64,000 nt of DNA from Sphingopyxis witflariensis (GTDB lineage Bacteria; Pseudomonadota; Alphaproteobacteria; Sphingomonadales; Sphingomonadaceae): NCBI RefSeq assembly GCF_002205635.1, contig NZ_NISJ01000006.1, positions 1 through 64,000 on the forward strand. The letters are read 5' to 3'. This document shows, piece by piece, positions 15,218 to 52,868 of this stretch; within the stretch, counting starts at the first letter, position 1; each line of letters opens with the position of its first letter. The translations under genes were made by a program, and so were the position numbers. A model generated the notes under the pieces. That model had not been told where the DNA came from. It worked only from the letters and a program-made list of their open reading frames with translations, and did not search any database.

Positions 15218-15248
15218 GTCATCCCCGCGAAAGCGGGGACCCAGGGGC
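15218..15248 (+). repeat. 31-bp repeat flanking the GIY-YIG gene (copy A1)
   Basis: The repeat begins GTCATCCCCGCGAAAG and contains the hairpin CCCCGC-GAAA-GCGGGG. It is identical over 31 bp to the reverse complement of copy A2 at 15553-15583. It ends 7 nt from the stop codon of the GIY-YIG gene. Confidence 0.85.
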
Positions 15249-15255
15249 GACATAT

Positions 15256-15549
15256 TCAGCCGTTGAGATGCTCATAAAGATCGAGCCACTGCGGATTATC
15301 GCGTTCGATCAGTTCCAGTTTCCAATCCCGCCGCCACTTTTTCATCGCCTTCTCCCGCGCGATCGCTTCATTCACGTCGGCAAAGGCTTCGGCGTGCACC
15401 AAGCGATGAACGTCGTATTTCGCAGCAAACTTGGAGCCCTCTCCGTTCCGATGCTGCCAGATTCTCTGAGATAGGTTGCCCGTCACGCCAATGTAGATCG
15501 TTCCGTTGCGTCCGCTCGCGAGAATATAGACGTGATAGGTCTGTTCCAT
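15256..15549 (-). CDS. Small GIY-YIG nuclease-domain protein
   Basis: The 97-residue single-domain protein of the URI/UvrC-type GIY-YIG superfamily has HVYIL (6-10), YIG (19-21), the catalytic Arg29 in SQRIWQH and the metal-binding Glu66 in AREKAMKKW. The usual ending is NPQWLDLY. It should be able to nick or cut DNA. The gene fills almost exactly the space between two perfect 31-bp inverted repeats. The stop is 7 nt from one repeat and the start 3 nt from the other, whose AGGGG serves as its Shine-Dalgarno. This suggests gene and repeats form one unit, possibly mobile or repeat-maintaining. Function is unproven. Confidence 0.88.
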   Translation of the reverse strand: MEQTYHVYILASGRNGTIYIGVTGNLSQRIWQHRNGEGSKFAAKYDVHRLVHAEAFADVNEAIAREKAMKKWRRDWKLELIERDNPQWLDLYEHLNG

Positions 15550-15552
15550 GAT

Positions 15553-15583
15553 GCCCCTGGGTCCCCGCTTTCGCGGGGATGAC
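15553..15583 (-). repeat. 31-bp repeat flanking the GIY-YIG gene (copy A2, inverted)
   Basis: This is the reverse complement of copy A1, identical over 31 bp. Its inner end, read in the gene's direction, is CCCAGGGGC followed by ATC and the ATG. The repeat therefore provides the ribosome-binding site of the GIY-YIG gene. Confidence 0.85.
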
Positions 15584-15601
15584 AGAAATTAGCGCTCTCA
15601 T

Positions 15602-15628
15602 GTCATCCCCGCGAAAGCGGGGACCCAG
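15602..15628 (+). repeat. Third copy of the GTCATCCCCGCG repeat (A3)
   Basis: A 27-bp match to copy A1 in the same orientation ends 19 nt before the stop codon of the acetolactate-synthase-like gene. With A2 it makes an inverted doublet separated by 18 nt, like a bacterial interspersed mosaic element. Confidence 0.8.
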
Positions 15629-47509: not shown

Positions 47510-48750
47510 CCGAAAATCCTCTCGACGCGCGACAGCCCCTCGATCAGGGCCGCGACATCGTCGTCATTGCTGTAAACGCCAAAACTCGCGCGCGCGGTCG
47601 CGGGGACACCCAGATGCTCCATCAGCGGCTGTGCGCAATGGTGCCCGGCGCGGATCGCGACCCCGCTTTCATCCAAGATAGTGCCGATGTCGTGCGGATG
47701 CACCCCCGCCATCGAAAAGCTTACGATTCCCGCGCTGTTTTCGGGACCGAAGAGCGTGATGCTGTTCTTGCGCGCCAATGCCTCGCGTAGTGTACCGACC
47801 AGCCCAACCTCATGCGCATGGATCGCGTCGACGCCGATCGCCTCGACATATTCGACCGCAGCCGCCAGCCCGATTGCCTCGATAATCGCGGGGGTCCCCG
47901 CCTCGAAACGCGTCGGGGCGGGGGCATAAGTCGTCTTCGCAAAGGTCACGCGGTCGATCATCGACCCACCGCCCTGCCACGGCGGCAGCGTATCGAGCTT
48001 GTCGCTCCACAGCACGCCGATGCCCGTCGGACCATAAAGCTTGTGGCCCGAAAAAACATAATAGTCGCAGCCCAAGGCCGCGACATCGACCGGCAGGCGC
48101 GGCACCGCCTGGCAACCGTCGATCAGCAGTTCAGCGCCGACGCGGTGCGCAAGTTCCGCCGCGCGCGCGACGTCGAGCGGGCTGCCGAGCACGTTCGACA
48201 CATGTGCGAAGGCAACCATATTATGTTCGGGGGTCAGCAGCTTTTCGGCGGCGTCGAGATCGATGCATCCGTCGGCGGTCAGCGGGCACACATCAACCTG
48301 CCAGCCCGCAAGCTGCCAGGGCACGATATTGCTGTGATGCTCGAGCATCGACAACAGCACGCGGCCCTTCTTCGGGTGCGAGTAAGCGACAAGATTGATT
48401 GCCTCGGTCGCGCCGCGCACGAACGCGATCTCATTCTCGCGCGCGCCGATAAAGCCCGCAATCCGCCGCCGCGCGGCTTCATAGGCCAGCGTCATATCGG
48501 CCGAACGCGCATAGACGCCGCGATGCACCGTCGCATAATCGCGGCCCATCGCGTTGACGGTCGCGTCGATGACGGCTTGCGGCTTTTGCGCGGTGGCGGC
48601 GGTATCGAGATAGTGCCAGTCGCCCGCAAGGCCCGGAAACTGTCCCCTGATCCCGTTCGTGTCGAGCGAAGTCGAGACACCCCGAAGGCGCGCACTATCG
48701 ATGGGCATCTCGACTTCGCTTGATGCGAACGGGGAGGAGAGGTTGGTCAC
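47506..48750 (-). CDS. sufS: Cysteine desulfurase SufS, with repeat-derived N-terminus
   Basis: The 414-residue PLP enzyme removes sulfur from cysteine for Fe-S assembly. The PLP lysine is Lys237 (SGHKLYGPTG), the persulfide Cys372 lies in RAGHHCAQPLM, and LEHHSNIVPWQ is at 136-146. Family homology begins at about residue 34 (IRGQFPGLAGDWHYLDTAAT). Residues 1-33 ([18 protein letters not shown] and onward) are a translation of the dispersed repeat at 48652-48734. Translation must therefore cross the repeat unless it starts inside it. The ATG at 48750 overlaps the sufD stop. Confidence 0.93.
   Translation of the reverse strand: MTNLSSPFASSEVEMPIDSARLRGVSTSLDTNGIRGQFPGLAGDWHYLDTAATAQKPQAVIDATVNAMGRDYATVHRGVYARSADMTLAYEAARRRIAGFIGARENEIAFVRGATEAINLVAYSHPKKGRVLLSMLEHHSNIVPWQLAGWQVDVCPLTADGCIDLDAAEKLLTPEHNMVAFAHVSNVLGSPLDVARAAELAHRVGAELLIDGCQAVPRLPVDVAALGCDYYVFSGHKLYGPTGIGVLWSDKLDTLPPWQGGGSMIDRVTFAKTTYAPAPTRFEAGTPAIIEAIGLAAAVEYVEAIGVDAIHAHEVGLVGTLREALARKNSITLFGPENSAGIVSFSMAGVHPHDIGTILDESGVAIRAGHHCAQPLMEHLGVPATARASFGVYSNDDDVAALIEGLSRVERIFG
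48652..48734. repeat. GTCGAGCGAAGTCGAGA repeat inside sufS (copy C1)
   Basis: An inverted pair, CCCGTTCGTGTCGAGCGAAG from 48652 and its partner ending GCGAACGGGG at 48734, encodes the first third of the SufS N-terminal extension. Related copies lie at 52371-52452 and 63981-64000. Confidence 0.8.
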
Positions 48751-52362: not shown

Positions 52363-52868
52363 TGCAAAATTCCGTTCGCCTCGAGCGAAGTCGAGAGGCC
52401 CTTCGTGCGTGCATTGTCGAGGGGTGTCTCGACTTCGCTCGACACGAACGGGTTTGATTTGGCGGGGGCGACCGTAAGGCTCGCCAAACTAATTTCTTGC
52501 AACGCACCGCGCACCGCGCCGTTCACGACGTCCCAATGCGGCTGCACCTTGCAGCTGCCCTCGAGCGAACAATCATGCCGTCCTTCGGCAACGCAGGCGG
52601 TCAGCGCGATCGGTCCTTCGACCGCCTCGATAATATCGGCAACGCTGATCGCCGCCGCGGGCCGCGCGAGCCGCACCCCGCCGCCGCTGCCGCGCGACGC
52701 GACGAGCAGTCCGGCACGGGCGAGGCCGCTCACCAGCTTTTGCGCGGTCGGCCCGGGGATGCCCGTCTGTTCGGCCAGCATCGCGGCGTGAATCGGTACC
52801 GACCCGCACTGGCGGGCGGCGGCACTCATCAGCACCACGGCATAATCGGCAAGGTTGGACAGGCGCAT
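52359..52868 (-). CDS. Rrf2/IscR-family Fe-S-sensing regulator, with repeat-derived tail
   Basis: The 169-residue protein has the Rrf2 winged helix ([20 protein letters not shown], then [18 protein letters not shown]). Three cluster-ligand cysteines are Cys92, Cys100 and Cys106 ([19 protein letters not shown]), equivalent to those of IscR. It should sense Fe-S status and repress the suf operon that it leads. Residues about 139-169 ([20 protein letters not shown] and onward) are a translation of repeat C2 and are not part of the family. Its promoter and a palindromic operator lie immediately upstream. Confidence 0.92.
52371..52452. repeat. GTCGAGCGAAGTCGAGA repeat at the Rrf2/sufB junction (copy C2)
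   Basis: An inverted pair, CCGTTCGCCTCGAGCGAAG from 52372 and TCTCGACTTCGCTCGACACG to about 52447. It is read in frame as the last residues of the Rrf2 regulator, from just before the sufB start codon. Confidence 0.8.

Follow-up and report, generated by a model that had tools for sequence, protein, structure and literature searches.

A small GIY-YIG nuclease gene of Sphingopyxis witflariensis lies between two copies of one palindrome in opposite orientation, which raises the question of whether gene and repeats form a single unit and whether such a unit moves. The locus belongs to the window, by which we mean the whole stretch analysed (positions 1 to 64,000 of contig NZ_NISJ01000006.1), and comprises the following features:

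15256..15549, minus strand: GIY-YIG nuclease gene, 97 amino acids, single domain, with a match to PF01541
15217..15248, plus strand: repeat A1, a repetitive extragenic palindromic (REP) sequence of the CGTC type, with a GTC tag pointing outward, a hairpin with a GAAA loop and a CCA tail facing the gene
15553..15584, minus strand: repeat A2, the identical inverted copy of A1, at the start side of the gene
15601..15628, plus strand: repeat A3, a third copy of 28 bp, outside the unit

The analysis indicates that this unit is likely to be a small mobile element of the REP type, independent of the REP-associated tyrosine transposases (RAYTs), with a single-domain GIY-YIG nuclease as its sole gene product. 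Both association and mobility have good support, the basis being the linkage of gene and repeats, the matching of repeats to nuclease lineages, the maintenance of the hairpin, the dispersal of units in another genome (G107) and sites without the unit in relatives.

Recomputation agrees with the sequence-only reading of the window in that the stop codon of the gene lies 7 nt from A1 and the start codon 3 nt from A2, with the third copy, A3, just outside; the repeats had also rightly been called identical and inverted, and it is their length that changes, from the 31 bp claimed to 32 bp (TGTCATCCCCGCGAAAGCGGGGACCCAGGGGC) as read directly and recomputed. A2 ends in CCCAGGGGC, directly 5' of CATC-ATG, and in this manner supplies the AGGGG Shine-Dalgarno-like stretch which that reading had pointed out. 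Within the window the 16-bp repeat core is found without mismatch at A1, A2 and A3 only, and a scan of the whole genome (38 contigs, 4.3 Mb) for the 26-bp repeat, allowing at most two mismatches, gives 32 copies against none for the reversed control, which excludes chance. The protein matches PF01541 with an E-value of 3.9e-15 and 56.3 bits (cut-off 22.6). In an alignment of 76 rows Y8, E66 and N85 are invariant and Y19 and R29 almost so, and we take these five to be the catalytic residues. The AlphaFold2 model has a mean predicted local distance difference test score (pLDDT) of 92.4, and its closest folds are those of the UPF0213 proteins and of Slx1 (other Foldseek rows, with E-values above 0.1, were disregarded), the closest solved sequences being UPF0213.

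Hairpins beside nuclease genes and control reading frames

The first sample of relatives comprised the best 80, chosen by similarity, of at least 583 in GTDB contigs, whose phylum labels are unsure because many of them come from metagenome-assembled genomes. Using open reading frames (ORFs) of the same loci as controls, and scoring the inverted repeat between the two 150-bp flanks, a score of 15 or more was obtained for 61 of 79 nuclease genes (L096, too close to a contig end, was dropped) against 3 of 877 control ORFs. The second sample added Sphingomonadales genes, from 30 loci and from 60 further places hand-picked among the matches listed, mostly intact genes well within contigs; the 196 profile matches correspond to 188 distinct ones and to 176 full-length nuclease genes, 173 of which have both flanks available and 129 reach the same score. 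A stricter finder, requiring GTC, allowing at most one stem mismatch and giving a bonus for CC, located GTC-tagged hairpins on both sides of 101 of the 176 genes (100 of 174 when two repeated entries, from the own genome and from G107, are merged), against 2 of 1038 control ORFs. For GIY-YIG genes of this clade, the proposal of more frequent flanking by such repeats than for other ORFs is thus supported. A hairpin with its tag pointing outward is found on one side in 129 of 176 genes and on the other in 112, and the median distance of the repeat is 24 nt from the nuclease start and 12 nt from its stop.

A third sample, obtained with tblastn in plasmid records, gave 33 matches, and 9 of the 13 examined have a CGTC-like inverted repeat with a score of at least 16. 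The positive records are from Azospirillum, Novosphingobium aromaticivorans, Sinorhizobium meliloti (the weakest, with score 16 and a reverse-read tag CCTC), Shinella, Aeromonas, Neisseria gonorrhoeae (in which the matched repeat ends lie 73-104 nt away from the nuclease gene), Sphingobium, Neorhizobium and Rhizobium CIAT894; Photobacterium (score 8), R. tumorigenes (7), Planktothrix (12) and Spirosoma (14) lack such a repeat. The phenomenon is neither local nor restricted to Sphingomonadales.

The tag in the window unit is TGTC and not GTAG, a distinction that leads to an established class of repeats. In PMC3733652 (Di Nocera, De Gregorio and Rocco 2013), GTAG and CGTC REPs are defined, the latter by an unpaired CGTC or TGTC tag, a stem of 8-9 bp, a loop of 4-5 and a CCA tail. 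The CGTC superfamily includes Neisseria dRS3 and Rickettsia RPE-4 and RPE-6, occurs mostly in Alphaproteobacteria with reports from five phyla, and is described there as lacking a dedicated transposase, CGTC REPtrons having possibly vanished (PMC3733652). The repeats found here fit this superfamily in tag, stem, loop, tail and dispersal as dimers with outward tags: among 129 left elements a stem of 8 bp and a loop of 4 or 5 are each found in 120, and a CCA tail in 94, tag and tail counts leaning upward because the finder required GTC and rewarded CC. What differs is the GIY-YIG nuclease gene between the repeats. The unit had been suggested to be undescribed, and this may hold for the link to GIY-YIG, yet not for the repeat itself, which belongs to known orphan REPs (PMC3733652). 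The term GIY-YIG does not occur in the text of that paper, the terms nuclease, RAYT and transposase do not occur in PMC12306157 (RepRanger 2025), and a literature search covering titles and the starts of abstracts, with preprints and most subscription papers outside its range, gave none tying GIY-YIG to REPs among the papers listed; the novelty of the link is accordingly not certain. Some records annotate the small GIY-YIG genes as excinuclease ABC subunit C, and partners of CGTC repeats may have been overlooked for this reason. REPs within hypothetical proteins of less than 120 amino acids are excluded from the genic REP count of PMC3733652.

Repeat type, nuclease lineage and a second clade

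The own genome has nine PF01541 matches, one within a 692-amino-acid frame, which is taken as uvrC, and eight in small genes, three of them broken. Each flank was read, and all eight small genes or pseudogenes adjoin palindromes, on both sides in six (one copy at L006 being degenerate). The eight carry palindromes of about six types, namely CCCCGCGAAAGCGGGG, CTGAACTTGTTTCAG, CCCCGGACTTGATCCGGGG, TTCCCGCGAAAGCGGGAA, CCCCGGCGAAAGCCGGGG and a TTGCGAGCGAAGCGAAGCAA type, with CCCCGGACTTGATCCGGGG found at L003, L004 and, as a variant, L007. The first two (C37:167847-172549) are near-identical genes 1.4 kb apart, separated by an insertion-sequence-like stretch that appears to cut one repeat of each gene, and L007 (C11:553527) is a broken unit, with the GIY-YIG domain of the gene taken as uvrC (C11:552262) about 1 kb away. 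The pairing of repeat and nuclease foreseen by the sequence-only reading stands, with the correction that different nuclease lineages use different palindromes, and a single fixed repeat for all nucleases is ruled out.

Indeed, palindrome type tracks the nuclease lineage more than the host genome. Across 135 distinct genes, distances between proteins are correlated with those between repeats (r 0.39), a value never reached in 2000 tries when repeats were shuffled among paralogs of the same genome only (p 0.0005). Paralogs within the sample exist for 45 genes in 17 genomes, and for 31 of these genes the repeat of the nearest nuclease from a different genus is more similar than the repeats of the own paralogs (p 0.0015). 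The loop class changes 13 times along the protein tree, which has few columns and many open forks, against 40.3 in shuffles, none of 200 being as low.

The pairing of the hairpin is also maintained. Scanning the fetched DNA, which is enriched for nuclease loci, for GTC-N7-CG.A.G-N7-CC sites, with no pairing required, gave 312 distinct sites, of which 258 are paired at 6 or 7 of 7 positions; variable stem positions change on both sides, and position 6 is paired in 280 of 312 against 106 expected. For five control tags the corresponding counts are 0/50, 0/21, 0/57, 6/39 and 1/13. Comparison of the two copies of 90 units, picked by a finder that favours pairing, shows 33 compensated and 18 uncompensated differing stem pairs.

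The number of repeats goes along with the presence of the nuclease. We have counted the pattern GTCRYYCCNGCGNANGCNGGRRYC in 147 genomes of the order, its reversed control being zero in all of them; 74 have a strong nuclease match (best E-value below about 1e-25), 19 weak matches only and 54 none, and the median copy number is 10, 0 and 0, respectively. At least ten copies are present in 38/74, 2/19 and 2/54 of these groups, and zero copies in 14/74, 13/19 and 38/54. Another pattern, GTCATCCCAGCGNAAGCTGGGATC, is present in 19 of the 147 genomes, all of which belong to the 93 that have a nuclease match of any strength; for G112, one of the 19, this match is a fragment adjoining such a hairpin.

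The 19 genomes with weak matches only contribute 18 distant GIY-YIG genes and one fragment (L323) of clade 1, the clade with CGTC REPs. None of these 19 has paired GTC hairpins and two, the fragment being one, have a one-sided hairpin. Their use as a plain negative control was given up since three of the 19 have other inverted repeats with a score of at least 15, and it is from these that a second clade was found. Seven distant genes were read and show a different palindrome, CCGTTCGTCCTGAGC-TTGTCGAAGGACG, and variants of it, lying in four of the seven near or within the C-terminal coding end; at L324, L329, L332 and L336 it is read as part of the protein C-terminus (VSTSLDTNG or PSTSSG stretches). 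A clade-2 profile built from six genes matched 91 of the 147 genomes at an E-value of 1e-10, many of these being cross-matches to clade 1. The test on clade 2 covered 28 of 30 loci returned (L339-L366, one per genome; the weaker L367 and L368 were excluded) and gave an inverted repeat score of at least 14 in 24 of 28 against 1 of 28 local controls, and the motif stands at the left end in 21 loci and at the right end in 27, compared with 16 of 221 control windows. Five of the six genes that had suggested the pattern are positive, and 19 of the other 22. A tree separates three groups, with support of 99, 87 and 97: the two clades and a set of eight further GIY-YIG genes of the order, which belong to neither clade, lack such repeats and may be UPF0213-like. 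The window itself carries two inverted-pair dimers of this second palindrome superfamily (CCGTTCGTGTCGAGCGAAGTCGAGACAC type; 48653-48733 and 52372-52451), which look like orphans because no strong match to a clade-2 nuclease exists in the own genome (best E-value 1.1e-14).

Dispersed units and sites without them

Of the 32 repeat copies of the own genome, 24 form 12 close pairs (counted by eye), each plus then minus, hence with the GTC tags outside. Ten such dimers were inspected and measure 69-105 bp, and the gene unit has the geometry of a dimer in which the gene replaces the spacer. Several dimers (L183-L199) are heterodimers of a CCCC-stem and a TCCC-stem copy, the nuclease unit consisting of two CCCC copies. 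No match to PF01797, the family of the RAYT transposases (Y1 HUH), was found in the own genome, nor in 16 of 18 other genomes of the genus; RAYT-driven repeats are thereby ruled out in the own genome, in line with the suggestion that a GIY-YIG enzyme takes the place of the RAYT in a REP-type system.

Dispersal is most evident in G107, in which one repeat type flanks four full-length and three shorter units at seven places in unrelated loci. The full-length units have 345-347 bp between repeat starts (that at 499072 with an internal stop), and the shorter, internally deleted ones 115, 228 and 244 bp. Within loci of 4.4-8.3 kb the full-length units have 427-541 bp in common with L145 at 84-94% identity, and no other common stretch of 60 bp or more was found between these loci and L145. 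One G107 unit lies between genes inferred to be laccase-like and HAD-like; the HAD neighbour is found in 8 of 29 relatives and the nuclease at this site in none of the 29. An exact empty site could not be defined, since the relatives, at 79% DNA identity or less, are too distant. A GCGGACG-like stretch lies about 20-30 bp outside several G107 units (L145, L152, L242, L244, L245) and also outside the own-genome dimer L197, and is perhaps part of a larger repeat or a preferred target.

A further site is found in Azospirillum. Between sufB and sufC of A. lipoferum 4B there is a gap of 617 bp, taken up by the nuclease and a dimer to either side of it; this gap measures 91 bp in A. ramasamyi, 87 in A. 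oryzae, 129 in B510 and 55 in A. thermophilum, and TSH58 and A. brasilense have about 32 bp. These are six of the 11 other Azospirillum records matched, and no CGTC repeat was seen at the site in any of the six.

For the window site (ALDH site), 57 genomes have a match, and of the 30 loci of the same genus that were examined 28 have both neighbours, the second being not there in two. Among the 28, the unit is present in 5 (own included) and not in 20, the remaining 3 being an internal deletion (L228), a remnant (L237) and a single repeat (L238). As had been anticipated, strict vertical synteny thus does not apply at this site, where the unit separates two genes that may once have been adjacent. 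The 20 loci without it have a gap of 39-160 bp with other repeats or none, some being inverted pairs of related look such as CCCCGGCGAAGGCCGGGG; in many of these relatives (L217, L218, L220 and others) the spacer carries the inverted pair CCCTCCCGC-GCGGGAGGGG. All five loci with the unit have a similar leader, and one old insertion followed by losses would therefore fit as well as several gains. Sites without the nuclease gene exist, yet at both the window site and suf most lack these repeats as well. Whole units at unrelated loci, together with sites without the unit in relatives, make mobility well supported.

Mechanism, competing explanations and significance

In the mechanism that we propose, the ends of the element would be inverted CGTC-type REPs, each with its GTC tag outward, then the hairpin, and the CCA tail inward. 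The nuclease, very likely the dedicated partner enzyme of its repeats, would be structure-selective, recognising its own repeat when extruded as a hairpin or cruciform, and nicking beside the GTC or the CCA foot. GIY-YIG enzymes cleave DNA by hydrolysis and are not known to join strands, for which reason a new copy would have to be made by host replication and repair, with no strand transfer. The exact cutting model is tentative, and we hold it as falling somewhat short of an even call. Dimers without a gene would be non-autonomous derivatives of the unit, as REPINs (REP doublets forming hairpins) are of RAYTs. Indeed, the unit resembles REPtrons and REPINs in having one small DNA-processing gene between inverted REPs and many gene-less dimers, and it differs from REPtrons with a RAYT in that the GIY-YIG enzyme belongs to an unrelated superfamily and the tag is unrelated to GTAG. 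Where a species harbours several repeat families, RAYT enzymes are likewise specific to their repeats (PMC3733652).

A number of observations weigh against this interpretation. The GTC hairpin is on one side only in 39 of the 176 genes and on neither side in 36 (39 and 35 of the merged 174), and tags face the gene on 46 and 42 of 176 sides, on both in 18, which may partly arise from dimers lying in the flanks. Repeats of own paralogs are the closer ones in 14 of the 45 genes compared. Plain co-inheritance would also yield a matching of repeat and nuclease, although a neutral sequence of 27 bp should not stay recognisable at 60-80% protein identity. The 14 strong-match genomes without GTCRYYCCNGCGNANGCNGGRRYC belong here, the pattern covering one stem and loop class only, as do G027 (52 copies) and G033 (12 copies), with no nuclease match at an E-value of 1e-5. 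Homology of the G107 units extends about 25-140 bp past the repeats, and neither a target-site duplication nor an exact boundary was seen by eye in the dimer flanks or in the suf alignment, where spacers have diverged. Finally, we know of no strand-transfer activity in GIY-YIG enzymes.

A different view would see a free-standing homing nuclease, whose gene invades the spacer of pre-existing REP dimers: the enzyme would cut dimers that are still empty, recombination across the REP arms would copy the gene in, and something else would move the REPs. I-TevI and its relatives, the GIY-YIG homing endonucleases, are likewise mobile genes encoding a nuclease of the same fold; here, in contrast, no intron or intein is seen, the 97 amino acids leave no extra DNA-binding domain, and there are inverted palindromic ends and dispersal to unrelated sites. 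We consider this view unlikely, given that sites without the gene are mostly without the repeats (sufB-sufC in six Azospirillum records, and the 20 window-site loci with other or no repeats) and that the number of dispersed repeats can be predicted from the presence of the nuclease, an effect not to be expected of a passenger. Distinctly improbable, in our judgement, is a host maintenance enzyme that resolves REP cruciforms and protects the host, with flanking repeats that regulate or terminate its transcript. The closeness of repeats to the gene would agree with it, and so would the processing of branched DNA by Slx1, which is the nearest fold match of known function. Slx1 requires Slx4 (PMC8287910). 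However, strong matches are patchy (74 of 147 genomes), genes are broken in three of eight own-genome cases, copies are dispersed within a genome and one is inserted inside an operon, and these are signs of a mobile element, unlike a conserved repair gene. That small genes and REPs merely occupy the same intergenic space, where REPs mostly lie (PMC3733652) and where dimers abound in these genomes, has a negligible probability and is ruled out, as is chance, by the ORF controls, with paired GTC hairpins in 1 of 189 small control ORFs, tags outward far more often than inward and repeat type following nuclease lineage.

A mobile element with its own nuclease bears on what moves the CGTC repeats, a question left standing in 2013 (PMC3733652): the nuclease is probably what spreads this widespread class of bacterial repeats, whose mover had not previously been found, and it becomes a candidate enzyme for moving them, dRS3 and the Rickettsia RPEs included. 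The finding also predicts which nuclease acts on which repeat, and the small proteins and short DNA substrates make a direct assay feasible. More generally, lone GIY-YIG nucleases might drive a whole class of palindromic repeats, with at least two clades each having its own superfamily (CGTC REPs and CCGTTCGTCCTGAGC-TTGTCGAAGGACG) and spreading by nicking of their own hairpins and host repair, without encoding any transposase, recombinase or reverse transcriptase, a generalisation that could go either way. Should the main finding be right, it would add a type of mobile element with a hydrolytic nuclease as its single gene, and many genes for which the annotation says no more than GIY-YIG nuclease or excinuclease ABC subunit C would gain a role.
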